This document shows, one piece after another, positions 45,224 through 62,405 of a stretch of 64,000 bases of DNA; the stretch's first letter is position 1; each line of letters starts with the position of its first letter. The stretch is from NCBI RefSeq assembly GCF_018861905.1, contig NZ_JAHLDU010000012.1, positions 1-64,000 of the forward strand, read 5' to 3'. Made by a program: the position numbers and the translations under genes. The notes under the pieces were generated by a model. That model was not told the origin of the DNA. It made no database searches and was given only the letters and a program-made list of their open reading frames with translations. The stretch comes from Clostridium sp. DSM 17811. GTDB taxonomy: Bacteria > Bacillota > Clostridia > Clostridiales > Clostridiaceae.

Positions 45224-45715
45224 TTATTCCCTTCCACAATTAGATACTTCTCCTTTTAATATTCCTAATGCATGGTTTAATTCTGTAATTATATATTCTA
45301 AACACTCGTTAACTGCCTTCGGACTTCCTGGTAAATTTATTATTAATGTGCTCTTACGAATTACAGCTACTGCACGGCTTAACATTGCTCTTTTAGTAAA
45401 TTGTAAACTAAAGCTGCGCATAGCTTCTGGTATCCCTGGAACTATCCTTTCACCTATTTCCAAAGTTGCCTCTGGCATACAATCTCTTAGTGAAAAGCCT
45501 GTCCCTCCTGTTGTAAGAATAAGATCCGCAGCTCTTTCATCACAAATCCTCTTCATTTCAGCACTTAGAATATCTTTTTCATCTGGTAGTAATATTGCCT
45601 GTACAACTTCATATCCATTTCCTTCAACAATTTTTCTAATAGCTAAACCACTTCTATCTTCTCGTTCCCCTTTATATCCACTATCACTTGAAGTAATTAT
45701 TGCTACTTTGAACAT
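45224..45715 (-). CDS. mogA: molybdopterin adenylyltransferase (MogA)
   Basis: The 163-residue enzyme adenylylates molybdopterin before molybdate insertion. Family motifs are TSSDSGYKGEREDRSG, LTTGGTGFSLRDCMPEAT and INLPGSPKAVNECL. It is the last gene of the molybdenum cofactor run, overlapping the MOSC gene by 13 bases, with GGGAGATGAG before ATG 45715. The size and the TGGTG loop distinguish it from MoaB/MoeA fusions. MoaB is a close alternative name. Confidence 0.9.
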   Translation of the reverse strand: MFKVAIITSSDSGYKGEREDRSGLAIRKIVEGNGYEVVQAILLPDEKDILSAEMKRICDERAADLILTTGGTGFSLRDCMPEATLEIGERIVPGIPEAMRSFSLQFTKRAMLSRAVAVIRKSTLIINLPGSPKAVNECLEYIITELNHALGILKGEVSNCGRE

Positions 45716-46134
45716 ATTAACTCATCTCCCACTTTGATTTTTCCACCATGGATAACCTTTGAAAAAACACCTTCTCTAGGCATAATACAATCTCCAACTC
45801 TCTTGTATATTTCACAATGAGCATGGCACTCTTTACCTACTTGAGTAAGCTCTAAAATAACATCATTACATTTAAATAATGTACCAATAGGTAATGTTTT
45901 AAAGTCAATACCTTCAACTAATATATTTTCTCCAAAGGCTCCATCTTCTACTGCTCCCCCTTTGTCATTAAATTCAAGTACTTTATCATAAGATAATAAA
46001 CTAACCTGCCTATGCCAATTCCCACCATGAGCATCATTATCTAATCCAAATCCTTCAATAACATTACATTCTCCTATATTTTTCTTTTCAGTTCCTCTTT
46101 TCTCACTTATACATATGGCAATAATTTTTCCCAT
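45703..46134 (-). CDS. MOSC domain protein
   Basis: The roughly 143-residue stand-alone MOSC domain (as in YiiM and the molybdenum cofactor sulfurase C terminus) has GFGLDNDAHGGNWHRQVSLL near the start and FGENILVEGIDFKTLPIGT, then QVGKECHAHCEIY with the conserved cysteine of the family. MOSC proteins bind or hand over sulfur and cofactor. AGGAGG lies nine bases before ATG 46134; longer starts lack an RBS. It lies between moaA and mogA and overlaps the latter. Confidence 0.88.
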   Translation of the reverse strand: MGKIIAICISEKRGTEKKNIGECNVIEGFGLDNDAHGGNWHRQVSLLSYDKVLEFNDKGGAVEDGAFGENILVEGIDFKTLPIGTLFKCNDVILELTQVGKECHAHCEIYKRVGDCIMPREGVFSKVIHGGKIKVGDELICSK

Positions 46135-46162
46135 CTTTGAGTTCCTCCTTATGTCTTTATAA

Positions 46163-47143
46163 TCAACCACCGATTTGTGACATTATATTTTGTTCAAAAT
46201 TCTCATAATCCTCAGCTTCTAAAAATCTATTTTCTCTTGGCTTATTGTAAATAGTCTTCTTAATGATTTCTATAATTTCTTCATCATTTTTACCACTTCT
46301 TATTAATGTGTTAAGATTCTGACCTTCACTATATTGTAAACAAGTTTTCAAAAATCCATTGGAGGTAAGTCTAGCTCTATTACACTTTTCACAGAACTTA
46401 TGACTAACTGCACTTATAAAGCCTATTTTCCCTTGAAAATTATCTAAACTATAATAATTACTTGGTCCATTACCTATAGATTTATTGAAGACTGTCAGCT
46501 TACCAAAATTTTCTTCAATAATCATCTTTATTCTATCTTCGCTTATCCCTTTAATTTTCTTACCAAGTCCAATAGGCATTAGTTCAATAAATCTAATACT
46601 GATATTTTTATTTTGTGCCATTTTAGTTATATCTAAAATTTGTTCATCATTTACACCTGCTATTGGAACACAATTTACTTTAACAACAATATGCTTATAT
46701 TTTAATGTTTTATTAATACCTCTCATGACCTTGTTTACATCACCAATGCGTGTAATACTTTTATATGCAATTTCATCTAATGAATCTATGCTTACATTAA
46801 CTGCATCTAATCCTGATTTAACTAAGGAGTCAATTTGTTCTTCTAATAAAATTCCATTAGTGGTTAAAGTAACATTGTTAATACCCTGTATACTTTTTAT
46901 TTTCTTAATGAGATATGCTAAATTATCTCTTACTAAAGGTTCTCCCCCTGTAATTTTAATTTTACTAATCCCTATTTTTGCAAAGTTTTCACACAAATAT
47001 ATAATTTCTTCATAAGATAATATATCCTTATGGTCTATACTCTGTATTCCTTTTTCTGGCATACAATAAATGCATCTTAGATTACATCTATCAGTAACTG
47101 AAATTCTTATGTAATCGATTTTTCTATTATAAATATCAAACAT
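46163..47143 (-). CDS. moaA: GTP 3',8-cyclase (MoaA)
   Basis: The 326-residue radical SAM enzyme performs the first step of molybdenum cofactor synthesis, converting GTP to 3',8-cyclo-GTP. The N-terminal cluster motif is CNLRCIYC (about residues 20-27) and the C-terminal cluster motif is CEKCNRARLTSNGFLKTC (about 252-269). Between them KITGGEPLVR and a conserved RFIELMPIG are seen. The terminal GG tail (MSQIGG) needed for activity is present. It is in line with the other cofactor genes, followed at 28 bp by the MOSC gene. Confidence 0.95.
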   Translation of the reverse strand: MFDIYNRKIDYIRISVTDRCNLRCIYCMPEKGIQSIDHKDILSYEEIIYLCENFAKIGISKIKITGGEPLVRDNLAYLIKKIKSIQGINNVTLTTNGILLEEQIDSLVKSGLDAVNVSIDSLDEIAYKSITRIGDVNKVMRGINKTLKYKHIVVKVNCVPIAGVNDEQILDITKMAQNKNISIRFIELMPIGLGKKIKGISEDRIKMIIEENFGKLTVFNKSIGNGPSNYYSLDNFQGKIGFISAVSHKFCEKCNRARLTSNGFLKTCLQYSEGQNLNTLIRSGKNDEEIIEIIKKTIYNKPRENRFLEAEDYENFEQNIMSQIGG

Positions 47144-47213: not shown

Positions 47214-47717
47214 TTAATTAGAATCTATATATTTTAATAATACTTCTATAATTTCATCAACATCGTTTATATTGATAGTTTTAATCCCCTCAAACTTGAA
47301 GAACAAATCAGTTGCTATGGCAATTAGTGTTTCTTTTTTACAAACATAATTTCTTGAAATCTCTTTTTTTATAACTTCAACCTTGGGATAATTAGAGTAT
47401 TTAAAACCCTCTAGCAAAATAATATCTGCTTCTTTGAAATAACTAACTAATTCTCTTTCAGAAACTTCATCCTGTTCTTTAACCATCATAAATTTTGTTT
47501 TGGAAAATACAGCTGTTCCATATGCCCCAGCTTCTTTATGTCTATAAGAATCCGTTCCTTCTACGTCACCTTCAAAATCATGTCCATCATGTTTAATTGT
47601 AGCAACCTTATAACCTAAGTTTACTAATCTTGGTATTAGTTTTGTTATAAGGGTTGTCTTTCCGGAATTTTTAATCCCACTTATTGCAATTAAAAGAGGC
47701 TTCTCTCTATTTTTCAT
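47214..47717 (-). CDS. mobB: molybdopterin-guanine dinucleotide biosynthesis protein B (MobB)
   Basis: The 167-residue P-loop GTPase assists MobA in attaching GMP to molybdopterin. It has Walker [11 protein letters not shown] (about residues 14-23), [20 protein letters not shown] and [16 protein letters not shown], all characteristic. Its ATG lies inside the end of moaC (11-base overlap). MobB together with MobA shows that the pathway makes the bis-guanine-dinucleotide form used by the DMSO reductase family, such as the enzyme encoded upstream. Confidence 0.92.
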
Positions 47718-48189
47718 TTATGAATTCTCCACTTTTTCCACCTGTTTTTTTTGCTAAATATACTTCAGAAATTTCCATGGTTTTGTCTATTGCCTTGCAC
47801 ATATCATAAATAGTAAGAAGTGTTACATTAACTCCTGTTAAAGCTTCCATTTCTACTCCTGTTTTCCCCTCCACCTTAACTGTACAAATAGCTTCTATGT
47901 AATATTTTTCTTTATTTATTTCAAAATCCACTGTACATTTACTAATCATAAGTGGATGACACATTGGAATTAAATCAGAAGTTTTTTTTACACCCATTAT
48001 GCCAGCAACTCTCGCTACTCCAAGTACATCTCCCTTTTTAACAGTTTGATTTAAAATAGCCTCCATTACGTGATTATTAACAAAAATTTTTCCTTTTGCA
48101 ATTGCTATTCTTGATGTTATATTTTTTTCTGAAACATCAACCATAACTGCATTTCCATTTGAATCAAAATGACTAAACTCTGTTTCCAT
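47707..48189 (-). CDS. moaC: cyclic pyranopterin monophosphate synthase (MoaC)
   Basis: The 160-residue enzyme works with MoaA to form cyclic pyranopterin monophosphate. Signatures are [51 protein letters not shown] and [20 protein letters not shown], ending KTGGKSGEF. All catalytic regions are intact. It lies 123 bp after moeA; that gap holds no gene, only AT-rich sequence with an imperfect inverted repeat (AAGGCATA/TATGCCT, about 48273-48308). Confidence 0.95.
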
Positions 48190-48312: not shown

Positions 48313-49518
48313 TCAAAGTAAAACAACTTCTACATTATCACCTTTATTTAATTTTGTGGTTCCTTTATGTACATCTATTAAACAGTTACAGCCAACCATA
48401 GATGCAAGCATTCCTGAAGAATGTTTATTTTTAGGTAAACTAACTTTTCCATTATTAAAATAAGCACGTATAAACCTTCTCTTCATACTTGGTTTATTAA
48501 ATTCATCCTCCATAGTTCCTGTAACTTGTTTAGGCTGCAAAGTTTTATTGCCACTTAGTTTAGCTAAAACTGGCTTTCCTAAAAGTTCAAAAGTTGTAAG
48601 AGCCGCAAATGGATTTCCTGATAAAGATAATATAGGTTTATTTTTATACAAAGAATACATTGCTGGAGTTCCAGGCTTTAAATTAACCTTCCAGAAGATT
48701 CTATTTGCATCTATTAACTGAAGTACATTATGTAAAATATCCTTTTGACCTACTGAAACTCCACCTGTGGTTATTATTAAATCTACATCCTGAATAATTT
48801 CACATATTCTTTTCCCAACTTGTTCTTCACTATCTCCAATTATTTCTGCAATTACTGGTCTTAATCCAAATTCATTTAATCGAGAATATATTAAATGCAA
48901 ATTGCTATCGTAAATTTTTCCTATCTTTAATTGATGTCCTGGCATTCCAACTTCATCACCAGTAACAATTAATGCAATTCTTGGCTTAGCTTTAACTTTA
49001 ATCGTTGAAATTCCCATGCTTGAAATAACACCCTGATGTACATAAGTAATTAATTCACCTTTTTTTACTAATAACTCTCCTTTTTTTATATCTTCACCAG
49101 TAAAACAATAATTATCATATTCACTAAGTTCTTCATAAATTTCAACTTCATTTTGACCGTAATTAGTTTTCTCTTGCCTTATAACACAATTTGCACCTGT
49201 AGGAATCTTTGCACCTGTCATAATTCTCATTGCCTCACCTTTTTGAAGCACTTTTTCACTATATCCACCTGCAAATATGCAATCTACAACAGTTAGCTTT
49301 TTCATGTTTTCTTTGCTTGCACCTTTAGTATCTTCTGAAATAAGTGCATATCCATCAAGAGGTGACCTATCAAAAGGAGGATTATTCATAGGTGCATAAA
49401 TATCTTCAGCAATTATCCTTCCGCCGGCTTCAATTAATTTTATTTCTTCAGTTTCTTTAATTTCTTCTATGCTTTCAACCATTAGCTTTATAGCTTTTTC
49501 TAGTTCTATATTAAACAT
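48313..49518 (-). CDS. moeA: molybdopterin molybdenumtransferase (MoeA)
   Basis: The 401-residue enzyme inserts molybdate into adenylylated molybdopterin. Motifs include PPFDRSPLDGYAL near the N terminus, RIMTGAKIPTGANCVIRQE, VTGDEV, the TTGGVSVGQKD loop and SLSGNPFAALTTFE. The domain order and length match MoeA. It is three bases downstream of a second molybdopterin-binding gene. Two MoeA-type proteins in one operon may reflect separate molybdenum and tungsten handling. Confidence 0.93.
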   Translation of the reverse strand: MFNIELEKAIKLMVESIEEIKETEEIKLIEAGGRIIAEDIYAPMNNPPFDRSPLDGYALISEDTKGASKENMKKLTVVDCIFAGGYSEKVLQKGEAMRIMTGAKIPTGANCVIRQEKTNYGQNEVEIYEELSEYDNYCFTGEDIKKGELLVKKGELITYVHQGVISSMGISTIKVKAKPRIALIVTGDEVGMPGHQLKIGKIYDSNLHLIYSRLNEFGLRPVIAEIIGDSEEQVGKRICEIIQDVDLIITTGGVSVGQKDILHNVLQLIDANRIFWKVNLKPGTPAMYSLYKNKPILSLSGNPFAALTTFELLGKPVLAKLSGNKTLQPKQVTGTMEDEFNKPSMKRRFIRAYFNNGKVSLPKNKHSSGMLASMVGCNCLIDVHKGTTKLNKGDNVEVVLL

Positions 49519-49521
49519 GAA

Positions 49522-50547
49522 CTATACTCCCTTTCCAAATCCGCAGTTTGGATATGTGCAAACTTTACAGCTAAGACATAATCCCCCGTTTCCCATTCTT
49601 GCAATATCCTTTTTCGTTATCTTAACACCTGCTGCTACTCTTGGTAGTATTAAATCAAAAATTGTTGCTTTAGCATACATTACGCAGCCTGGCAAACCCA
49701 TAACAGGTGTTCCATCTTCAAAATACCCAAGTAAAAACATAGCTCCTGGAAGTACCGGTGCACCATATGATACAATTTTTGCTCCACTATCTCTAACAGC
49801 ACTTGGTGTTAAATCATCAGGATCAACACTCATCCCTCCTGTACAAATAATAAGATCTGCACCATTTTTCTTTAATTCATTAATAGCATTTACTATCATA
49901 TTACTTTCATCCTTTACTATTTTGTGCCCACAAACACTAATTTTATATTGACTAAGTTTATCTATAACAACAGGTGTAAATGTATCTTTAATTCTTCCAT
50001 AATAAACTTCACTTCCTGTTGTTACTATGCCTGCTTTCATATTCTTATAGGGTAATAATTCCATAAGAGGATTATCTCCTGCAATTTCTTGTGCATTCTT
50101 TAACTTTTCTTCTTCAACAATAAGAGGTATAACTCTTGTCCCAGCTAATTTTTCACCTTTTTTCACTGGATAATTTGTATGTCTTGTAGCAATCATTATT
50201 TCATCTAACTCATTAATTTTGTTTAGTCTTTCTACATCGACTCTAAATAAACCATCTATGTCTGCAATTAATTCAATCTTACCCTCTTTAACTTTTGAAG
50301 GTTTAATATTTTCATTTTTGCAAATATCATATAGAATTTCTGCTGCTTCATTTTCATGAAGCATTCCTTCTGTTTTTTCCCAAACATAAAGATTCTCTTT
50401 CCCTATAGATAATAGGACAGGAATATCTTCTACTCTAACTATATGCCCTTTTTTAAAAGCTATATCCTTTACTACGTCTTTTATGATTCTAGTAATATCA
50501 TGACATATTACATGCCCTACCGCATCAACTGTAGCTATTTTTTTCAT
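49522..50547 (-). CDS. MoeA-like molybdopterin-binding protein with cysteine-rich tail
   Basis: This roughly 341-residue protein has a molybdopterin-binding fold (VTTGSEVYYGRIKDTFTPVV, IICTGGMSVDPDDLTPSAVR, MGLPGCVMYAKATIFDLILP) in its C-terminal half and a divergent N-terminal half. It ends with CLSCKVCTYPNCGFGKG: four cysteines in 12 residues, which suggest a metal or iron-sulfur site. I start at ATG 50547 (GGGG eight bases upstream) rather than TTG 50556. It follows a long structured leader with a terminator hairpin (50685-50935). It is probably involved in metal insertion, or is specific for the adjacent reductase. Confidence 0.8.
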   Translation of the reverse strand: MKKIATVDAVGHVICHDITRIIKDVVKDIAFKKGHIVRVEDIPVLLSIGKENLYVWEKTEGMLHENEAAEILYDICKNENIKPSKVKEGKIELIADIDGLFRVDVERLNKINELDEIMIATRHTNYPVKKGEKLAGTRVIPLIVEEEKLKNAQEIAGDNPLMELLPYKNMKAGIVTTGSEVYYGRIKDTFTPVVIDKLSQYKISVCGHKIVKDESNMIVNAINELKKNGADLIICTGGMSVDPDDLTPSAVRDSGAKIVSYGAPVLPGAMFLLGYFEDGTPVMGLPGCVMYAKATIFDLILPRVAAGVKITKKDIARMGNGGLCLSCKVCTYPNCGFGKGV

Positions 50548-50684
50548 AAACAACACCCCTTTTTTCAGTTATGAGTTAAGAATTAAGAGTTAAAAGTTGT
50601 AGTTGAAAGTTTCTTTTAATATCTTATCTTTTCACTTCTTAATTCCCAATTAAGAAAAACTCACATATATTAAAAAACGCAAAA

Positions 50685-50734: not shown

Positions 50735-50935
50735 ACCTAAGTATTTTGCTCTAAATATCATTCATTATTTACCAAAAGATAGAATATCCCCTTGTGCAAA
50801 TAATGCTCCTTCTCAAATACAGAAGGCTAAATGGTTTCCCACGTAACCCTGAAAGTAATTAAGGCATATGAAAAATTTAATATGCTTAATTTCACTTTGG
50901 CTCAATATCATAGATTTTACTCCTTAGATATTTTT
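50735..50935 (-). promoter_or_regulatory. structured leader, candidate molybdenum-cofactor riboswitch
   Basis: Read on the minus strand, the 200 bases between mobA and the terminator hairpin contain several paired elements. There is a long-range pair (TATCTAAGG at about 50930 with TTAGGTA near 50737), a long hairpin (AAATTAAGCATA/TATGCCTTAATT), GGTTACGTGGGAAACC, and AGCCTTCTGTATTTGAGAAG followed by GAGCA. An aptamer-like fold immediately before an intrinsic terminator and a moeA-type gene is the layout of a Moco riboswitch. I cannot confirm the consensus by eye, so the class is inferred from context. Confidence 0.5.
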
Positions 50936-50970
50936 GCACGGAGACTATTAAATTAATTCTAAATTTCCAA

Positions 50971-51543
50971 TCATTTCCTAAGTTTATCATAATCCCTTAA
51001 GTCATTTACATTATCCAAAATATTTTTATTAAAATTAGTCTCAGATAAAGGTATAATTTTTGAGTTTGCTCTTCTTATTAAGTTTAAAAGCTTATAATCC
51101 TTTTCCTCTATCATGTTTTCAATTTTACCAATTAAGTCTTTAGAATATATTCCACCTAAAGGACAGATTCTGCCTTTTTCATCTTCAGTCACAATGCACT
51201 CTATATTTTCTGTAATAGAATCACAAAGAAAATCTATAAACTCTTTTTTTATCTTAGGCATATCACAGGCGATTACAACGATATACTTTTCCTCAATCAT
51301 TTTTAATGCTGAATATATACCTCCCATTGGTCCAATATCCTTGTACATATCCTCTACTAACGTGAAGTTCAAATTTCTATATTTCTCTTTATTATCTACT
51401 GAAATATAAATATTCTGAAAACCTGTTAATTGATCAATTATACTTTCAATAAAACTCTTATTCTCATATTTAAGAAAAGCCTTGTTGTTTCCATTCATTC
51501 TTCTACTTTTACCACCCGCAAGGACCAATGCTCCAATTTCCAT
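50971..51543 (-). CDS. mobA: molybdenum cofactor guanylyltransferase (MobA)
   Basis: The roughly 190-residue nucleotidyltransferase transfers GMP from GTP to molybdenum cofactor. The nucleotide-binding LVLAGGKSRRMNGNNKAFL near the N terminus, MGGIYSALKMI and VIACDMPKIKKEF are family motifs. ATG 51543 fits AAGGATGG; ATG 51552 overlaps it. It starts 19 bp after the TorD-DmsA fusion gene, so it is cotranscribed with the reductase and links it to the dinucleotide cofactor. Confidence 0.92.
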   Translation of the reverse strand: MEIGALVLAGGKSRRMNGNNKAFLKYENKSFIESIIDQLTGFQNIYISVDNKEKYRNLNFTLVEDMYKDIGPMGGIYSALKMIEEKYIVVIACDMPKIKKEFIDFLCDSITENIECIVTEDEKGRICPLGGIYSKDLIGKIENMIEEKDYKLLNLIRRANSKIIPLSETNFNKNILDNVNDLRDYDKLRK

Positions 51544-51561
51544 ATGAACCATCCTTCTGAT

Positions 51562-54375
51562 TTATACTGATACTATGCTTTTTGCGACTTCCACTAGATT
51601 TGTATGTTGGGGATTACCCTTCGCCAGCGGTGTTGGCGTAGTATGGGTAAGTACATTAATGCACCCGCGCAAATCTGTTCCCTCTTTATCTGGGCTATAC
51701 CATGCACCTTCACTGAGTGCAACTATACCTTTTGTAATCCTAGTAGTTACTTTCGCAGGAATTCGCACTCGTCCTCGGCCATTAAACACATCAATCATCA
51801 TACCATTGCTAATACCGCGTAGCCTTGCGTCTTCCGGATGAATCCACAACCCTTGAGGATCCACTTCTTCCATCCATTCATTATTGTCATGGATAGAATG
51901 ACATCTTCTCTTCGAATGATAACCTATAAGCTGTAACGGATATTTATTTTTCAATGGATCCGCCGGACCTTCCACACATGGTGTATAAGATGGAATCCCT
52001 GGAATTAGCTCATGCTGATTCATGTCATACAAAGTTTTACTAAAAATCTCGATTTTTCCCGAAGGTGTTTTAAACGGAATTTTATCTTTAATCTGTTTTT
52101 CAAAAGCTATACGTATCTTATTGTTCTTATACTGATACCCGCCGCGTTTCTTAAATTTCTCATAAGAAGGCAATTCCCCTTCAAACTTTCTAATTTCCTC
52201 ATAACTATCACTTAACCAATCTTCTACCGTTTCATGTCCGCATGTGAATTCTTCATACAATTCCAGTTTACGGGCAACTTCCTTCAACCAGTCATATTCA
52301 AATCTGCACTCAAAAATAGGCTCCATCATTTTGGCATTATATAAGAAATAGTTACCATCACCCACCCACGGCATTGTAATATTATTTCCTTCAAATACAG
52401 AAGTAGCAGGAAGCACTAAATCGGAATATCTAGCACTTGACGTCATAAAAATATCTGAGGTAACAATAAACTCACATTTGCTCGTATCCTTTAATATCCG
52501 TATTGTATCGTTAATATTACTGTGCTGGTTAATCAAGGTATTACCGGCCAAATTGACAACCATCTTAATATTGCTTTCCAAACGCTCTACCCCTTTTAAA
52601 CCATCTTCAACAGGTTTCAACTCTGTACCATGTTCGATGGCTTTTGTCCAAAGAAAGTTAGGAATAGTACCAGAATATGGATTTGTAGGCTCAGGTATCG
52701 ACGGCATCTTATGCATAGGAGGACATATATTGTCTCCTGCAGATCCACCTGATATTCCTACGTTGCCTGTCAGGCAACATAACATGGCTATACCTCGATA
52801 AGTCTGTTCTCCATTACCAGTACGTTGTATGCCAAGACCTGGCAGAATGCATGCTGGTTTTGTTAAAGCATATTCCTTAGCCAGACGCTCTATAGTATCA
52901 GCTGGGACACCACATATGAGTTCCGCCCATTCTGGCGTCTTTTCCACACCATCTTTTTTACCAAACAGGTAATCGCTATAATTTTCTTCTTCAGGAATCC
53001 CTTCCGGCATATGTTTTTTATCAAAACCGATACAATACGTATCCATAAACTTTTGATCTTCTAATCCCTCTTTTAAAATCACATATGCCATGGCATCTAT
53101 AAGGGCGCCATCAGTCGATGGACGTATACCAACCCACTCATCACCATAAGCAATTACAGAATCACTTTTTCTTGGATCAATCACAACAATACGAACGCCT
53201 TTTTTATGCAATTGTGAAATATAATAATTTGTATGTGGCCCATATATTGTTTCTGCAGGATTATGTCCCCATAAAATCAATAATTTAGTATTTAAAACAT
53301 CTTCCATGGAATTGGAATTAAAGTTATCTCCATATATAGTTGGCATAACATAACCAGCACAAGCGTTGCTATAGCTATTGTGGAATCCTAGATACCCTCC
53401 ATCCAGTGCAAACAGGTTTCGTATCATATTTTGTGGACGCATAAGGGCTGTTATTCCAGTTGCATTCATCACAAAACGGGAAGCTGCACCATACTTTTCC
53501 CTTATTCGTTTCGTCTCACTTGCTATAATATCAATAGCTTCTTCCCAACTGATCCTTTCAAATTTTCCACTTCCGCGTTCCCCTGTACGCTTCATTGGAT
53601 ACCTCAGACGATCTGTACTCAAAAAAGTTTTCTTATAACCTTTTCCTCGCACACATGAACGAATCTGTGGATTTTCATCCGCAGCATTATCCGTATCCAG
53701 GTTTATGATGCATCCTTCCTGTACAGAAGCATTAATTCTACATCTTCCGCCACAGTCATTAATACCTGCGCTGCATATATATTTTTCTTCTTTGATTGTA
53801 ATCTCAGGTTGTTTTTCCCATGAATAACTATCAAATTCCATTATGTCTTTCGAAGTTAACTGAAGTTCTAATCCACCAGACTGCAAAATAGTTTTCATAT
53901 CTTCTAAAATGCCAGTAAAACTAGGGCTACAATCGTACTTCGCAACAGCCATAATCATAGACTGGACAGTATCTATCGTAAAGGCTTGGATAAATTGATT
54001 TATCACTTTGCTATAATCATCAACGTTTCTCAGTGTCAAACTGCTTAAATACTCTAAGAAGCGAAATTGTTCCCCGATATAGTCGGCTGGATTTCCATCC
54101 ATACCAATTGCTTCATATCCATACTTTTTATAAAACTTAATTACTTCCAGCGTAACTTCATTTTGCAAGATTTTCCCGCTGTTTTTGCATGCTGATGCCC
54201 AAAGCGGTATAAATATATTTGCATCGGTGCCTTTTAAACAGTTCTCATACTCTGTTTTTGTTAGGTTACATTCTCGACCAAACTCGCTGCATTCTGCTTT
54301 CCAACAATCATATGAGTTAAAAAACGAAACTACCATATGGCAACTCGCATAAAAAGATTCTAATAAATTAAGCAT
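51562..54375 (-). CDS. TorD-like chaperone fused to a DmsA-type molybdopterin oxidoreductase
   Basis: This 937-residue protein joins two usually separate proteins. Residues 1 to about 165 resemble the TorD/DmsD maturation chaperones (NEVTLEVIKFYKKYGYEAI, NPADYIGEQFRFLEYL). From about residue 195 it is a catalytic subunit of the DMSO reductase family, closest in pattern to DmsA/YnfE: iron-sulfur cysteines 201, 208, 212 and 241, then CVRGKGYK, RLRYPMKRTGERGSGKFERI and SWEEAIDIIA. Cofactor-binding and cap regions are complete to the C terminus. No Tat signal exists, so it is cytoplasmic. ATG 54375 follows AGGAGG exactly and overlaps the previous stop by eight bases; the longer frame (from 54426) lacks an RBS. 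Its substrate is unknown: sulfoxide, N-oxide or another oxidant. Confidence 0.9.
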   Translation of the reverse strand: MLNLLESFYASCHMVVSFFNSYDCWKAECSEFGRECNLTKTEYENCLKGTDANIFIPLWASACKNSGKILQNEVTLEVIKFYKKYGYEAIGMDGNPADYIGEQFRFLEYLSSLTLRNVDDYSKVINQFIQAFTIDTVQSMIMAVAKYDCSPSFTGILEDMKTILQSGGLELQLTSKDIMEFDSYSWEKQPEITIKEEKYICSAGINDCGGRCRINASVQEGCIINLDTDNAADENPQIRSCVRGKGYKKTFLSTDRLRYPMKRTGERGSGKFERISWEEAIDIIASETKRIREKYGAASRFVMNATGITALMRPQNMIRNLFALDGGYLGFHNSYSNACAGYVMPTIYGDNFNSNSMEDVLNTKLLILWGHNPAETIYGPHTNYYISQLHKKGVRIVVIDPRKSDSVIAYGDEWVGIRPSTDGALIDAMAYVILKEGLEDQKFMDTYCIGFDKKHMPEGIPEEENYSDYLFGKKDGVEKTPEWAELICGVPADTIERLAKEYALTKPACILPGLGIQRTGNGEQTYRGIAMLCCLTGNVGISGGSAGDNICPPMHKMPSIPEPTNPYSGTIPNFLWTKAIEHGTELKPVEDGLKGVERLESNIKMVVNLAGNTLINQHSNINDTIRILKDTSKCEFIVTSDIFMTSSARYSDLVLPATSVFEGNNITMPWVGDGNYFLYNAKMMEPIFECRFEYDWLKEVARKLELYEEFTCGHETVEDWLSDSYEEIRKFEGELPSYEKFKKRGGYQYKNNKIRIAFEKQIKDKIPFKTPSGKIEIFSKTLYDMNQHELIPGIPSYTPCVEGPADPLKNKYPLQLIGYHSKRRCHSIHDNNEWMEEVDPQGLWIHPEDARLRGISNGMMIDVFNGRGRVRIPAKVTTRITKGIVALSEGAWYSPDKEGTDLRGCINVLTHTTPTPLAKGNPQHTNLVEVAKSIVSV

Positions 54376-55567
54376 CGTGTACCTCCTTTTCATTGAATAT
54401 CTGCTTACGTAGAGCATCAATTCCAACCAAACTACCTACTCTGATAGCTCCTTTAAGTTTACCGTTACAATACCATCGCTTTTCCTTACTTTTTGTAAAG
54501 TGCGGATTGATTGCAAATATAGGAGCATCATTATTTTCTACCGTTTCCACTTCATATTGCAAATCCGGATTCTTTCCAGCATCGCCCACAGCAAATATGG
54601 CAAATTCAGGGCTATTTAGCAGCAATGAGCTGTCAATCATTCCATAGCGCAATCTTTTGCCGCATGCATTGGCTCCAGCGACTTGCCCCTGGACTTTTGC
54701 CTGGGACCAAAGCGAATAATTTATGCCATTGTGCTGCGCACAATCTCCACAGGCATACACTCCGCTTACAGACGTTTCCATGTGTTCATTTACTACAACA
54801 GCCCGATCACATTCAATACCAGCCTCTTTAGCTATTGATGTATTGGCACGTACTCCACAAGACATAATTACAAAATCAGCAGGAATTATTGTTCCATCTG
54901 CTAATCTCACATCGGCTGCTTTTTCCCCAGGTGCTATACCTGACACATTAGCACCAGTAATGACCTTAATAGGGTTTAACAATTTTTCTAAACTCTTGGC
55001 AGTTTCTTCATCTAGTAATCTTGGCATTAGATAAGGTAGAGTTTCTACCACTGTAACTGTAATGCCAAGGTGCGAAAGTTCCAAGGCCATCTCAAGACCG
55101 ATCACTCCTCCACCTATTAGTACTGCAGAAGTTGCTCCCAGTATAAGCTTCTTAATCCCTTCAATATCCTTATATGTCCTGACACTTACTACCTGCTTCA
55201 TGTCAGATCCAGGAATAGGAGGTATAAAGTTACCCGCGCCTAATGCGTAAATGCATTTATCATACTGATAAATTCCCTTGCTGGTAATTACTTTTTTATT
55301 TTCCACATCCAGTTTTTCTATTTTCGCATCTAGTACTACTTCTATACTATTCTCTTGATACCAACTTTCTGGATAAAGAAAATTCTTTTTCAAATCATAG
55401 GATAACAGGGGTGTTTTGCTTAACATTGGCCTTGAATAGGATAATACATCTTCATCAGAAATCATAACAATGTGGCAGTTACTGTCATAAATTCGGATAT
55501 TCTCCGCTGCGCTTATGCCAGCCATTCCGTTTCCTAAAATCACGTAATTTTTCCTTCTATTTTCCAT
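54368..55567 (-). CDS. FAD-dependent NAD(P)H oxidoreductase (NirB/rubredoxin reductase-like)
   Basis: The 399-residue pyridine nucleotide-disulfide family reductase has an FAD-binding motif YVILGNGMAGISAAENI (about residues 8-24), an NAD(P)-binding motif AVLIGGGVIGLEMALEL (about 144-160) and the second FAD motif GVYACGDCAQ. It closely resembles the reductases feeding rubredoxin, nitrite reductase or similar acceptors. It lies between the iron-sulfur protein (11-base overlap) and the TorD-DmsA gene (eight-base overlap). I infer it passes electrons from NAD(P)H to the iron-sulfur protein. It takes the place of the quinol-oxidising DmsC anchor. Confidence 0.88.
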   Translation of the reverse strand: MENRRKNYVILGNGMAGISAAENIRIYDSNCHIVMISDEDVLSYSRPMLSKTPLLSYDLKKNFLYPESWYQENSIEVVLDAKIEKLDVENKKVITSKGIYQYDKCIYALGAGNFIPPIPGSDMKQVVSVRTYKDIEGIKKLILGATSAVLIGGGVIGLEMALELSHLGITVTVVETLPYLMPRLLDEETAKSLEKLLNPIKVITGANVSGIAPGEKAADVRLADGTIIPADFVIMSCGVRANTSIAKEAGIECDRAVVVNEHMETSVSGVYACGDCAQHNGINYSLWSQAKVQGQVAGANACGKRLRYGMIDSSLLLNSPEFAIFAVGDAGKNPDLQYEVETVENNDAPIFAINPHFTKSKEKRWYCNGKLKGAIRVGSLVGIDALRKQIFNEKEVHDA

Positions 55568-56141
55568 ACTGTTCTCCTTCCTGATGGTTTAAAAATTCAT
55601 CGTTTAAATCCTTTGGAACACTTATTTTAATTGAAGGCTTGGTTTGTTCTGGTGACGGAAGAAATGGCAATGTTTGTACTGATGATTCTTCTCCCAACTC
55701 ATCTAATTTTCCAAATTTTAGCGAATGGGTAATACAGGCTGCAACACATGCTGGTGCCAGCCCTTTCTCACGCCGTTCATAACATGATTCACATTTTTGT
55801 GAGACACCCTTTGTTTTGCTAAAGGATACTGCACCATACGGACAGTTCCAAACACAGGCCCCGCAGCCAATGCATTTCCCATCATCATGCCTAACTGTCC
55901 CATCTTCTGCAACATACATGGAACCAACAGGGCAGACTTTTACACACGCTGGTTCCGCACAGTGATTGCAGGCACCAGAATAATGATAATGTTCTTCATT
56001 ATCTCTAACATCCATTGATATAGTTTCTACCCTACGATAAAACTCACCAGACCTCAGCTTATTTACGTCCTTGCACGCCACCTGACAGGCACTGCAACCT
56101 ATACAAGTTGTCATACCATAATAAAATCCAAGACGTTCCAT
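55557..56141 (-). CDS. DmsB-like ferredoxin subunit with four [4Fe-4S] sites
   Basis: The roughly 194-residue electron-transfer protein has four cysteine groups: CIGCSACQVACK, CNHCAEPACVKVCP, CIGCGACVWNCP, and CESCYERREKGLAPACVAAC. This is the DmsB/NrfC pattern. ATG 56141 follows AGGAGG; the upstream in-frame start (56165) lacks one. It is the first gene of the reductase operon and should link the FAD reductase to the molybdoenzyme. No DmsC is encoded on either side. The C-terminal 45 residues are not ferredoxin-like. Confidence 0.92.
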   Translation of the reverse strand: MERLGFYYGMTTCIGCSACQVACKDVNKLRSGEFYRRVETISMDVRDNEEHYHYSGACNHCAEPACVKVCPVGSMYVAEDGTVRHDDGKCIGCGACVWNCPYGAVSFSKTKGVSQKCESCYERREKGLAPACVAACITHSLKFGKLDELGEESSVQTLPFLPSPEQTKPSIKISVPKDLNDEFLNHQEGEQYGK

Positions 56142-56230: not shown

Positions 56231-56701
56231 TTAGTTTAATTTCTCTATTTGAGCCTCCAAGTATTTGTTATATTTACTTAGGAACTCACTTACAATGTGC
56301 GAATCATTATCATCAAATTCTTCAAAAAACTTTTTATCTCTTTCTCTCCCGGAAGAATGTATTTTTAAATGTTCATCAAATAATTCTTGACCTTTTGGGG
56401 TTAATTGGTAATAAATCTCTTTTTTATTACATTCTACTTGGTAACTTTCAATATCTCCATTATCTAATAGTTTTTTTGCTATTCTACTAATAGCACTTTT
56501 AGTCATTGCTAATTCTAATGATATTTTTGTAACATTTGGCTGTTCCAATTTACCTATTAGGTGAATGCAGTGAATTTCAGAATGTCCATAGTTATATAAA
56601 ATTTCTCTAGAGTTTAATTTATCTAATGCATCGTGTTTTTCAAAAAATTCTGTAAATTGAACCAGTAATAATTCTGAATACGACATATATTTTTTGTTCA
56701 C
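56231..56701 (-). CDS. MarR family transcriptional regulator
   Basis: The roughly 150-residue winged-helix regulator reads LNSREILYNYGHSEIHCIHL, then ISLELAMTKSAISRIAKKLL and YYQLTPKGQELF, as in MarR proteins. The start may be GTG 56701 (AAAGGAA only one base before it) or ATG 56686. It lies directly upstream of the dmsB-type gene and 44 bp after a flavin-reductase-like gene, so it may regulate either. A broken second copy of this gene lies at 57404-57458 and 58366-58448. Confidence 0.85.
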   Translation of the reverse strand: MNKKYMSYSELLLVQFTEFFEKHDALDKLNSREILYNYGHSEIHCIHLIGKLEQPNVTKISLELAMTKSAISRIAKKLLDNGDIESYQVECNKKEIYYQLTPKGQELFDEHLKIHSSGRERDKKFFEEFDDNDSHIVSEFLSKYNKYLEAQIEKLN

Positions 56702-56744: not shown

Positions 56745-57308
56745 CTATTGTTTTAGTGCCAATCCATCACGGTACGCATTGCCGACCTTTCCCCCTACTT
56801 TCAGGTAATCCTTACTCATCCAATCGTAAATAATCGGGTCAAACTTCGTCAAGGAGACCTTACCATTTTCACCCAGAATGCGCTCATCTATGCTGACGTT
56901 GACGATCTCTCCCACCATTCTCCAGGTCTCTTCGTCATAGCTTTTCATTCTGCACTCAAGGGCCATTGGCAGTTCCTCAATCAAAGGTGCATCTACAAAT
57001 TCCGACTTCACAGCATGGAAACCCGCTTTTTCGAATTTGTCAGATACTTTATTACCGGATTCAATTCCTACATAGTCACAGGCTGCAACGTGCGCCGCAT
57101 CCGCCATACTAACGGTGAACGCTCCACGGGAAAGGATATTCTTCACAGTCTTACGTTGTGTACTGAGGCATATGGATATTTCGGTTTCATTACTGATGCC
57201 CCCCCATACGGCAAGCATTGCATTTGGCTTACCGTCTTCACCATAGGTGGAAATGATAAAAACCGGCTGCGGTAATGTGTACGGTTTTGCTCCAAAATTC
57301 TTTCTCAT
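56745..57308 (-). CDS. flavin reductase-like FMN-binding split-barrel protein
   Basis: The 187-residue protein has the flavin reductase domain pattern PQPVFIISTYGEDGKPNAML, FTVSMADAAHVAACDYVGIE, KAGFHAVKSEFVDAPLIEEL and WRMVGEIVNVSIDERIL. Such proteins use NAD(P)H to reduce free flavin or act as FMN oxidoreductases. It is very similar along its whole length (by eye roughly two-thirds identical) to the protein at 61833-62405. AAAGGAG precedes ATG 57308. Its base composition is richer in GC than its neighbours, which suggests that it was acquired or duplicated from the 61-63 kb block. Confidence 0.85.
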   Translation of the reverse strand: MRKNFGAKPYTLPQPVFIISTYGEDGKPNAMLAVWGGISNETEISICLSTQRKTVKNILSRGAFTVSMADAAHVAACDYVGIESGNKVSDKFEKAGFHAVKSEFVDAPLIEELPMALECRMKSYDEETWRMVGEIVNVSIDERILGENGKVSLTKFDPIIYDWMSKDYLKVGGKVGNAYRDGLALKQ

Positions 57309-58814: not shown

Positions 58815-59837
58815 TTACCAAGGAATTGAAATCATATCACGAATAATTTCATCTAGACTATGTGCTCCGCACATTGCCATCGTTTCTTTTAATTCATTTC
58901 CAATTTTATCAATATATGTTTGAACACCTTCATCTTCTCCACCATATAGCGCTGTTACAAATGGCCTAGCAATTAAAACACCATCCGCTCCTATAGCAAG
59001 TGCTTTAAAGACATCTACACCACTACGGATACCACCATCAACAAAGATTTTCATATCATGACCTACGGTGTCAACAATATCTTTTAATACTTCAGCCGTT
59101 GATAAACATTGATCTAAAACTCTTCCTCCATGATTAGATACAACAATGGCACTTGCACCAGCTTGTTTAGCTTTTAATGCTCCTTGAACAGTCATGATTC
59201 CCTTAACAATAAATGGCTTATCACACGCTGCTATGATTTGTTTTAATTCTTTTACAGATTTACTTCCAGCAGGAGGTGTCATATTTTTCAAAAAAGGTAA
59301 CCCTGCTGCATCAATATCCATAGCTATAGCAATGGCATTTGATTCTTTGGCATATTTCATTTTTTCTAAAATAGTTTCATAATTCCAAGGTTTAATTGTT
59401 GGAATACCCAGACCATTTTCTTTCTTGATCGCGTTTGTTGCTGCTTCCATAACTTCTGGATTCGTCCCATCACCAGTAAATGCTAGTATCCCATGTTTTG
59501 CACAAGAGGAAACGAGAATATCATTGTATGACATATCATCATATTTATCACCATAATGAAGATTCACTGCTCCTACTGGTCCAGCAAAAATTGGGTATTT
59601 AAATTTTTGATTAAATAATTGAACACTTGTATCAACTGGTTTATTTTCTACTAAAGTATCCATATCAATTCGTATTTCTTTCCATTTATCATAGTTTCTT
59701 ATGGCTACATCACCAATCCCTTTAGCTCCAGGTCCTGGAATTTTGTTTTTACAAACTCTTCCATTACATTCATGACAAGCTTTACAATAATCTCCTATAC
59801 ATGTTCTTGCTTTTTCTAATATTTCATTGTACATCAT
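58815..59837 (-). CDS. FMN-dependent 2-hydroxy-acid dehydrogenase/oxidase with cysteine-rich N terminus
   Basis: The 340-residue enzyme is of the lactate oxidase/glycolate oxidase/IPP isomerase 2-like TIM barrel type. Motifs are FAGPVGAVNLHYG, PFIVKGIMTVQGALKAKQAG, the active-site histidine region SNHGGRVLD, and FVDGGIRSGVDVFKALAIGA for FMN phosphate. Residues 13-29 carry five cysteines (Cys13, 18, 21, 24 and 29), which would suit a metal or iron-sulfur centre; canonical members lack them. It probably oxidises L-lactate or a related acid with a non-oxygen acceptor. It is cotranscribed with the RpiR regulator, 12 bp upstream. Confidence 0.85.
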   Translation of the reverse strand: MMYNEILEKARTCIGDYCKACHECNGRVCKNKIPGPGAKGIGDVAIRNYDKWKEIRIDMDTLVENKPVDTSVQLFNQKFKYPIFAGPVGAVNLHYGDKYDDMSYNDILVSSCAKHGILAFTGDGTNPEVMEAATNAIKKENGLGIPTIKPWNYETILEKMKYAKESNAIAIAMDIDAAGLPFLKNMTPPAGSKSVKELKQIIAACDKPFIVKGIMTVQGALKAKQAGASAIVVSNHGGRVLDQCLSTAEVLKDIVDTVGHDMKIFVDGGIRSGVDVFKALAIGADGVLIARPFVTALYGGEDEGVQTYIDKIGNELKETMAMCGAHSLDEIIRDMISIPW

Positions 59838-61243: not shown

Positions 61244-61825
61244 TTACAGATATTTTTTTCCTTCGACCCATGCATTTCCGGCTTTCTCACCTAATGAAAA
61301 ATAGCTGTTGCTGAACGAATCAAAAAATAACATTCCTGTTTTCTTGGCATCAATTATGCCGGTTTTATCTAACACTGACTCATCTGCTGCTACATTGATA
61401 ATCCTGGCAAGTACAGTAGTGAAATTATTTGCTCTTACAAACTCTATGAGTTCGCATTCGATGACTAGTGGACCGCCTTCGATGATAGGGGCATTGACGT
61501 GTTCGCTCTTTACAGCCTTCAAGCCTGTTTTTGAAAATTTATCAGGAACTCTATGGCCGGTTACAATTCCAAAGTAATCCACTTCATTTATCAAATTCTT
61601 ATTAACTAGTGCAACAGTAAATGCGCGTCTCTTTTTAATGTTCTCATGCGTCTTACTACGTGGACCAATACATAATGCGAGATCACCGGCATTCGTCCTT
61701 GTACACTCATGCAGATTCATCACGTTGACTGTTCCATCATCATTATAAGTGCCGACCATTAAAACCGGTGCTGGATAACCATATGAAAAAACGTTTGGGC
61801 CTAAATTTTTCATCATAATAAACAA
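61244..61825 (-). CDS. flavin reductase-like protein, second paralogue
   Basis: The 193-residue split-barrel protein reads GPNVFSYGYPAPVLMVGTYN, FTVALVNKNLINEVDYFGIV and GLKAVKSEHVNAPIIEGGPL, all typical of the flavin reductase (FMN-binding) domain. It is more distant from the other two than they are from each other. It follows the 61833-62405 gene by seven bp, so both are translated from one transcript. Tandem ATGs exist; ATG 61813 (second) is near an RBS-like sequence, and the first ATG at 61825 also has AGAAGAGG. Confidence 0.83.
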   Translation of the reverse strand: MFIMMKNLGPNVFSYGYPAPVLMVGTYNDDGTVNVMNLHECTRTNAGDLALCIGPRSKTHENIKKRRAFTVALVNKNLINEVDYFGIVTGHRVPDKFSKTGLKAVKSEHVNAPIIEGGPLVIECELIEFVRANNFTTVLARIINVAADESVLDKTGIIDAKKTGMLFFDSFSNSYFSLGEKAGNAWVEGKKYL

Positions 61826-61832
61826 CCTCTTC

Positions 61833-62405
61833 TTAGTTCTTCTCTCTCAATTGAAGTCCGTCGCGGTAAGCATCACCGATCTTCTCACCAACGGACAGAT
61901 ATGACTTATTCATCCAATCGAAAGTGATCGGATGGAATTTTTCAAATGATACCTTGCCATCTTCTCCAAGAATCCGTTCATCCAGACTTACATTGACGAT
62001 TTCGCCTACCAGTCTCCAGGTTTCCTCATCATAGCTCTTCACTCTGCACTCAACGGCAAAAGGAAGCTCATCGATAATCGGTGCATCTACGAATTCGGAC
62101 TTTGTTGTATGGAATCCGGACTTCTCAAACTTATCTTCCACTTTATTTCCTGTTGTTATACCAAGGTAATCACAGGCAACTTCATTTTCCACATCCGCCA
62201 TACTTACAACAAAGGAACCTCTGGCAAGAATTCCCTTTAACGTATTTCTCTGGGATGCTACAGTAATAGTAATTTCTGTCTCATTCGTGATTCCGCCCCA
62301 TACTGCTAACATGGCGGTCGGCTTTTCAGCCTCATCATAAGATGAAATCATCAAAACCGGCATCGGTGTGATGTATGGCCTTGCTCCAATATTTTTTCTA
62401 GACAT
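61833..62405 (-). CDS. flavin reductase-like protein, third paralogue
   Basis: The 190-residue protein nearly duplicates the one at 56745-57308. The two share GFH..KSEFVDAPIIDELP and YDEETWR(L/M)VGEIVNVS blocks and the YRDGL C terminus. It likely binds FMN and reduces it with NAD(P)H. AAGGAGG precedes ATG 62405. It lies 54 bp downstream of the alcohol dehydrogenase gene in the GC-richer block. Confidence 0.85.
   Translation of the reverse strand: MSRKNIGARPYITPMPVLMISSYDEAEKPTAMLAVWGGITNETEITITVASQRNTLKGILARGSFVVSMADVENEVACDYLGITTGNKVEDKFEKSGFHTTKSEFVDAPIIDELPFAVECRVKSYDEETWRLVGEIVNVSLDERILGEDGKVSFEKFHPITFDWMNKSYLSVGEKIGDAYRDGLQLREKN

Follow-up and report, generated by a model that had tools for sequence, protein, structure and literature searches.

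How a reductase of the dimethyl sulfoxide (DMSO) type might obtain its electrons and its cofactor in the cytoplasm is the question raised by a short locus of Clostridium sp. DSM 17811 (GCF_018861905.1, contig NZ_JAHLDU010000012.1, positions 1-64,000; this whole stretch of 64,000 nucleotides is called the window). Its minus strand carries, in this order, a MarR-like gene and genes for a DmsB-like iron-sulfur protein, a flavoprotein, a TorD-DmsA fusion protein and MobA. An earlier note on this DNA had described three overlapping genes, encoding a DmsB-like protein, an NAD(P)H/flavin adenine dinucleotide (FAD) reductase and a DmsA-type enzyme, and both overlaps were confirmed (11 nt between the DmsB and flavoprotein genes, 8 nt between the flavoprotein and fusion genes). 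Sequence and structure comparisons make it likely that the system is a cytoplasmic NADH:S-/N-oxide oxidoreductase in which the maturation chaperone is permanently built into the catalytic chain as one of its domains.

The note had also proposed that the first ~165 residues of the catalytic chain are TorD-like. The TorD family model PF02613 matched this region with 25.6 bits (cut-off 22.2; the score was 22.2, just at the cut-off, when the longer open reading frame (ORF) was used), and with the model of the N-terminal domain as query TorD-family chains filled the top 12 PDB rows of both Foldseek and VIA-align, including 1s9u and 2idg, which we take to be family members although their titles do not say so. 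The claim therefore stands, with the domain extending over residues ~1-170 and having the all-helical TorD fold. Asp98 was aligned with Asp126 of E. coli DmsD, an equivalent of which was present in all 17 seeds compared, and Trp59 and Asp98 were invariant in a 19-row TorD alignment. The position of DmsD His127 is occupied by Tyr99, and Tyr was found there in all five flavoprotein-clade seeds compared and in the stand-alone TorD of one other clostridial locus (L019; L and G denote our locus and genome numbers). The fusion was the one PF02613 match in the window genome, although this search could miss a second TorD if it had diverged very far.

The rest of the fusion protein scored 885 bits against TIGR02166 (DMSO/selenate reductase, A subunit; curated cut-off 777.7) and shared 44% identity with E. 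coli DmsA across 790 aligned positions. The full-length model, from a 21-row alignment, had a predicted local distance difference test score (pLDDT) of 87 and a predicted template modelling score of 0.87, and the best PDB fold matches of the DmsA domain were the Haemophilus influenzae methionine sulfoxide reductase MtsZ, followed by Rhodobacter DMSO reductases. Ser336 was aligned with Ser147 of 1eu1, which we take to be the Mo ligand there, and both DmsA and YnfF of E. coli have a Ser at this position. In a passage of PMC10100899, Ser is listed as the Mo ligand of DmsA, and Ser336 is predicted to be the ligand here.

The flavoprotein matched Pyr_redox_2 (205.6 bits), has two Rossmann motifs and did not reach the NorW equivalog cut-off (172.4 versus 392 bits). 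A Glu ends the second Rossmann strand in all six flavoproteins looked at, and because Glu at that position marks a preference for NADH, the nucleotide is probably NADH rather than NADPH. Among 200 genomes of the family, 109 of which had a match, its nearest relatives were reductase domains of ~850-residue proteins (44-47% identity over ~385 aa for the best 12), recognised by eye as flavodiiron-rubredoxin-NADH:rubredoxin oxidoreductase (NROR) fusions. The DmsB-like protein contains 16 Cys in four groups, which make up four four-Cys cluster motifs. Both electron-transfer proteins matched the Aromatoleum aldehyde oxidoreductase (AOR) structure 8c0z in the PDB (E 2.3e-29 and 4e-10), though it was the best match of neither. 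That enzyme is an experimentally known case of a FAD and four-cluster NAD module joined to a pterin enzyme and, according to a passage of PMC6365974, is active with NAD+ and not with NADP+.

A cytoplasmic location is suggested by what was not found in the window genome (5.19 Mb, completeness 100%), the Tat (twin-arginine translocation) system, DmsC, a second TorD and the menaquinone pathway each being sought by one or two marker families. No twin-arginine (RR) motif was found on the fusion, no TatC match and no PF04976 (DmsC anchor) match in the genome, and no PF02621 match that would indicate the futalosine pathway. Six MenD matches all stayed below the cut-off of 244.2 bits, the best reaching 69, and would be other thiamine-diphosphate enzymes. 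The host thus appears to lack both the export of folded proteins and the synthesis of a respiratory quinone, and since only one PF02613 protein was found as well, the cytoplasmic location and the quinone-free donor look enforced. These results support the NAD(P)H-linked cytoplasmic chain suggested earlier and refine it to probably NADH. In 26 further genomes, TatC was present in 1 of 9 with a fused TorD, in 6 of 6 with a Tat signal on DmsA and in 4 of 11 with neither (including L057, whose signal was not assessable); completeness was not given for genomes reached through named loci, and TatC absences are therefore weaker there.

The same arrangement was sought in other genomes. The DmsA search gave matches in 14 of 206 genomes of the family at E 1e-60 or better, with a fused TorD only in the window, G005 and G023 (G104, G106 and G107 were counted as unfused from short frames alone), and in seven of 391 genomes of the class at E 1e-150. 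The scan of named genomes covered the best 80 loci of a capped list, and no count given here is a prevalence. In total 104 loci were classified by tblastn, with one genome included twice (L020 and L059), the RR motif not assessable in eight and some flanks short. TorD was fused to DmsA in 21 loci, the window included. The flavoprotein was present in 16, all with a fused TorD and none with an RR motif, and was not found within 3.5 kb in the remaining 88. It is a separate gene in four loci (the window, L032, L137 and L138, so that the gene trio recurs in three others) and part of one flavoprotein-TorD-DmsA chain, with TorD lying between the two catalytic parts, in twelve (L033, L034, L035, L122, L124, L129, L132-L136 and L139). 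The family of G580, a metagenome-assembled genome of the Erysipelotrichaceae, was searched in 272 genomes, and 12 of them have such a triple fusion, which is complete in 10 and truncated by a contig end in 2; some of the relatives with chaperone, enzyme and NADH module on one protein come from the rumen. DmsB lies directly upstream in all 14 flavoprotein loci uncut by a contig end, and overlaps the triple-fusion gene by 10 or 4 nt in all 10 uncut loci. As the earlier note had it for the window, no DmsC-like ORF (200-480 aa with at least six hydrophobic stretches; E. coli DmsC scores eight) was found in any of the 16 flavoprotein-linked loci, in flanks of up to 4.5 kb on each side and less in several. 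A fused TorD with no flavoprotein found nearby was seen in L016, L017, L036, L038 and L039, and anchorless DmsA-DmsB with a separate TorD is common among the Clostridia examined (L019-L024, L059). Among plasmid records, 134 held relatives below 60% identity; the eight rows seen of these 134 all start after the TorD domain.

Other arrangements were also encountered. In Acetivibrio ethanolgignens (L048:103-2850) a DmsB-like Fe-S domain forms the C terminus of DmsA, a different fusion in the same clade. Five loci (L018, L028, L037, L040 and L042) encode signal-less DmsA homologues with 51-57% identity to that of the window, and neither DmsB nor TorD was detected near them. The dmsA relative of L022 (G147) has three in-frame stops and is apparently decaying. 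In Bacillus marasmi (L041:8400-8470) the stop of torD is followed by the in-frame ATG of a Tat-signal dmsA, a layout from which a fusion could arise.

In the DmsA tree (81 of 104 rows, 23 near-duplicate or truncated rows being left out; quick LG+G4; outgroup not one-sided) the rows with a linked flavoprotein, together with L036, formed one clade (support 100), as did the triple fusions (100). Both lie inside a clade of 26 signal-less rows (100). Its sister is G333 (93, not starred), whose DmsA carries a Tat signal and has a separate TorD gene directly upstream. An extra Cys, Cys222, was present in 19 of 96 readable loci, namely in all 16 with a linked flavoprotein and, besides these, only in L036, L038 and L039. 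The tree suggests an order that leads from an exported DmsA with an upstream TorD to fusion and signal loss, then to NADH rewiring and finally to the single chain. The change between unfused and fused states occurs at least twice on the tree; long branches (L038, L039) and open forks prevent a firm count of fusion events. Among eight triple fusions, the ratio of nonsynonymous to synonymous substitution rates (dN/dS) of the TorD domain was 0.03-0.23 in the 24 of 28 pairs for which dS was estimable (four were saturated); it was 0.10-0.25 for the flavoprotein domain and 0.03-0.11 for DmsA, so that TorD falls in the flavoprotein range and above DmsA. The values are rough because many dS were near or above 1 (simple Nei-Gojobori method). 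Judged from these ratios, the TorD domain is under purifying selection, and so is maintained and not decaying. With somewhat better than even confidence, we suggest that one lineage of Bacillota fermenters re-internalised an exported respiratory S-/N-oxide reductase, whose signal was replaced by the chaperone that had read it, that the enzyme was then rewired to NADH, and that all but the Fe-S subunit was finally fused, giving a two-protein soluble route from NADH to sulfoxides or N-oxides with a permanently attached in-cis maturation factor.

In the proposed mechanism the proteins would form a complex in which NADH reduces the FAD of the flavoprotein. From there electrons would travel along the four [4Fe-4S] clusters of the DmsB-like protein, then via the DmsA-domain cluster, and arrive at a Mo-bis(molybdopterin guanine dinucleotide) (bis-MGD) cofactor with a serine ligand, which would reduce a small sulfoxide or N-oxide. 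The wiring of the flavoprotein to TorD-DmsA is suggested by the single-chain fusions in relatives (Rosetta-stone evidence). The TorD domain, standing in place of the Tat signal of exported relatives, would keep the apo-domain open in cis until insertion of the cofactor, which may be supplied by the adjacent riboswitch-controlled molybdenum cofactor (Moco) genes. A passage of PMC10609526 states that TorD helps apoTorA to take up its cofactor even when the signal peptide is absent.

No direct energy conservation would be expected; the gain may be re-oxidation of NADH in fermentation, which would allow more substrate-level ATP, and/or the recovery of metabolites that have been oxidised, methionine sulfoxide for example, by repair and salvage. 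Reduction of a sulfoxide or N-oxide by NADH is strongly downhill, as judged from the potentials, and the plain role would therefore be that of an electron sink, with repair or salvage as the alternative. E. coli DmsABC is described in part of PMC12096835 as reducing methionine sulfoxide, nicotinamide N-oxide and pyrimidine N-oxide. Among relatives without the flavoprotein, at anchorless clostridial dmsA loci, MetQ-/MetN-like transporter genes, mostly below the model cut-offs, adjoin L016 and L023 (and, by position and look, L017), and NifH/NifD/NifK-like genes adjoin L020 and L023, with NifH above the cut-off and most others below. These neighbours hint at organosulfur substrates in those relatives, and such loci may serve sulfur salvage of the methylthio-alkane-reductase type.

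Several observations weigh against the proposed NADH-linked enzyme with its built-in chaperone. The TorD domain is divergent, with a short N terminus and reduced N-terminal helices. PF02613 gave 18.9 bits, under the cut-off, for one of two triple fusions scanned and was not found for L038, and with a profile built from stand-alone TorDs only one of three triple fusions was reported up to E 10, at a domain E of 0.02. The four-Cys FS0 motif with E. coli spacing is absent; Gly204 occupies the first ligand position, with a Cys three residues before it, and cluster FS0 could therefore be altered (in 31 of the 96 loci with a readable motif, the seven residues upstream contain no Cys, and G333 with its Tat signal is among these). 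The DmsB-like protein falls below the TIGR02951 equivalog cut-off of 214.1 bits. L036, of the same clade, has DmsB and no adjacent flavoprotein, the flavoprotein tree contains several very long branches and an unstarred grouping, and one fused genome, G583, carries a piece of TatC at a contig edge. Furthermore, genes shared between distant loci named no substrate, within the flavoprotein clade included: the shared neighbours were DmsB, the flavoprotein, MobA and common ABC-transporter ATPases, and further sharing was confined to scattered pairs or trios of loci (flavoredoxin-, alpha-hydroxy-acid dehydrogenase-, iron-alcohol-dehydrogenase-, aldo-keto-reductase-, flavodoxin-, RpiR-, MogA-, glycosidase- and hydrolase-like genes, some identified by eye).

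It is possible, if rather improbable, that the TorD domain no longer acts as a chaperone and is a structural adaptor, a docking element or lid that seats the flavoprotein or DmsB on the molybdoenzyme. Its place between the catalytic parts of the triple fusions, the reduced helices and the Tyr at the DmsD His127 position would suit such a function, but that Tyr also occurs in a stand-alone TorD, the Asp126 equivalent and Trp59 are conserved, TorD fusions exist in five loci with no flavoprotein found nearby, and the search of the genome revealed no further PF02613 protein that could mature the enzyme. The same cytoplasmic NADH-linked enzyme might instead reduce an oxyanion such as selenate, tellurate or chlorate and serve detoxification, a substrate to which we give a similarly small chance. 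The TIGR02166 model carries selenate in its name, and the fusion obtains similar scores with the models of DmsA, YnfE and YnfF from E. coli (675, 669 and 652 bits). The best folds, by contrast, are MtsZ and DMSO/trimethylamine N-oxide reductases, a comparison weakened in that no selenate-reducing YnfE-type structure was among the matches listed, and the MetQ/MetN-like neighbours of flavoprotein-less relatives may point elsewhere.

That the flavoprotein is a bystander, DmsB being reduced by ferredoxin or another carrier while the NADH reductase serves something else, is very unlikely. In its favour, fused TorD-DmsA and DmsB occur with no flavoprotein nearby in G005, G023 and L036; the single-chain fusions in 12 genomes, the overlap or adjacency in the gene trios, and ten sampled flavoproteins that fall on one side of one branch (support 87/89, not starred), compatible with one lineage on one DmsA clade, argue against it. 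An assembly or frameshift artefact as the origin of the fusion was also considered and is as good as refuted, because the frame is uninterrupted and the TorD-DmsA fusion recurs in 20 further loci; the single continuous protein seen at first reading thus held up, and the fusion is conserved in relatives.

In comparison with known systems, the enzyme belongs to the DmsA family, but the system is not of the DmsABC kind. It shares with E. coli DmsABC plus DmsD, and with YnfEFGH-DmsD, the DmsA domain, Ser at the ligand position, a four-cluster DmsB and a TorD-family chaperone, but it lacks a Tat signal, the DmsC anchor and a separate DmsD, and an NADH flavoprotein replaces the menaquinol link. The anchorless dmsA-dmsB-torD locus of Clostridium luticellarii (L059, identical to L020) likewise has a DmsA homologue, DmsB and TorD and no Tat signal found, but its TorD is separate and downstream and no NADH flavoprotein lies nearby. 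Clostridial NADH-linked nitrate reductases, with catalytic, Fe-S and FAD genes beside Moco genes, have a similar three-part wiring; they are set apart by a NasA/NapA-type chain and a Cys ligand and are not known to have a TorD fusion, and the fusion protein did not score as such a chain (NasC 133 bits versus a cut-off of 1100, NapA 79 versus 904). The flavodiiron-rubredoxin-NROR fusions of Clostridiaceae contain the reductase domains closest to the window flavoprotein, but joined to a flavodiiron protein and rubredoxin. Aromatoleum AorABC (8c0z) also wires a FAD/NAD reductase and a four-cluster protein to a pterin enzyme, but this is a W enzyme of the AOR family that oxidises aldehydes, and TorD is not mentioned in the passage of PMC6365974. 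BisC, a biotin/methionine sulfoxide reductase, is likewise a cytoplasmic Mo S-oxide reductase; in the part of PMC7759655 concerned, no electron-donating proteins are encoded with it and its physiological donor is unknown, in contrast to the system proposed here.

Solubility alone is not novel, since anchorless enzymes with a separate TorD are already common in the Clostridia examined. The new point is that relatives of Erysipelotrichaceae have the NADH module, chaperone and enzyme as one protein, and in the open-access literature, as judged by titles and the start of abstracts, no TorD-DmsA fusion or NADH-linked DmsA was described, nor in the passages of PMC10609526 and PMC10100899. Passages of PMC10609526 argue from in vitro work that TorD-type chaperones act on the mature molybdoenzyme part independently of the Tat signal; with a covalent chaperone, no Tat signal and a genome without a TatC match, this action becomes directly testable. 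The triple fusions are compact soluble candidate NADH-driven S-/N-oxide reductases for structural work and biocatalysis, and for fermenters of the rumen and other anaerobic habitats the enzyme would be an additional electron sink.

Positions of the reductase system and of the neighbouring cofactor genes in the window
Feature	Positions	Strand	Basis
DmsB-like electron-transfer subunit, 194 aa	55557..56141	-	16 Cys, four [4Fe-4S] pattern; TIGR02951 163.7 bits
FAD/NADH reductase, NADH:rubredoxin-reductase / NirB N-terminal type (Pyr_redox_2), 399 aa	54368..55567	-	profile and structure matches
TorD-DmsA fusion protein, 937 aa, ATG at 54375	51562..54375	-	reading frame and model
TorD-family chaperone domain, residues ~1-170	53866..54375	-	PF02613, fold, alignments
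Linker, low confidence, residues ~171-196	53788..53865	-	pLDDT <50 at 170-182
DmsA-type bis-MGD S-/N-oxide reductase domain, residues 197-937	51565..53787	-	TIGR02166, fold
[4Fe-4S] (FS0) motif, C201-x6-C208-x3-C212 ... C241	53653..53775	-	alignment; extra Cys222
Ser336, predicted Mo ligand	53368..53370	-	structure and sequence alignment
MarR-type regulator gene, just upstream	56231..56701	-	matches MarR-type models, every score below cut-off
MobA-like nucleotidyltransferase (bis-MGD synthesis)	50971..51552	-	starts 9 nt past fusion gene
Moco/W-cofactor riboswitch RF01055, between mobA and moeA-like gene, heading cofactor genes	50790..50955	-	61.4 bits versus gathering 36
MoCF_biosynth (MoeA/MogA-like) protein	49522..50556	-	profile match
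MoeA	48313..49518	-	profile match
MoaC	47707..48189	-	named by eye from translation
MobB	47214..47717	-	named by eye from translation
MoaA	46163..47143	-	named by eye from translation
MOSC-domain protein	45703..46170	-	PRK14499 MoaC/MOSC model 168 bits, below cut-off 457
MogA-like	45224..45715	-	by eye; 56% identity to gene beside G333 dmsA

The fusion protein was the sole PF00384 match in the window genome, and the adjacent Moco gene cluster therefore probably serves it, other molybdenum-enzyme families lying outside the PF00384 search. Promoter and terminator scans of the locus gave matches at chance level only. Three flavoredoxin-like paralogues, identified by eye, lie near the system (56745-57308, 61244-61825 and 61833-62405), and L135 and L136 also have relatives of these in the neighbourhood of their triple fusion. 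A gene similar to those for FMN-dependent alpha-hydroxy-acid dehydrogenases is found near the system both in the window (58815-59837) and in L138 (65-691).

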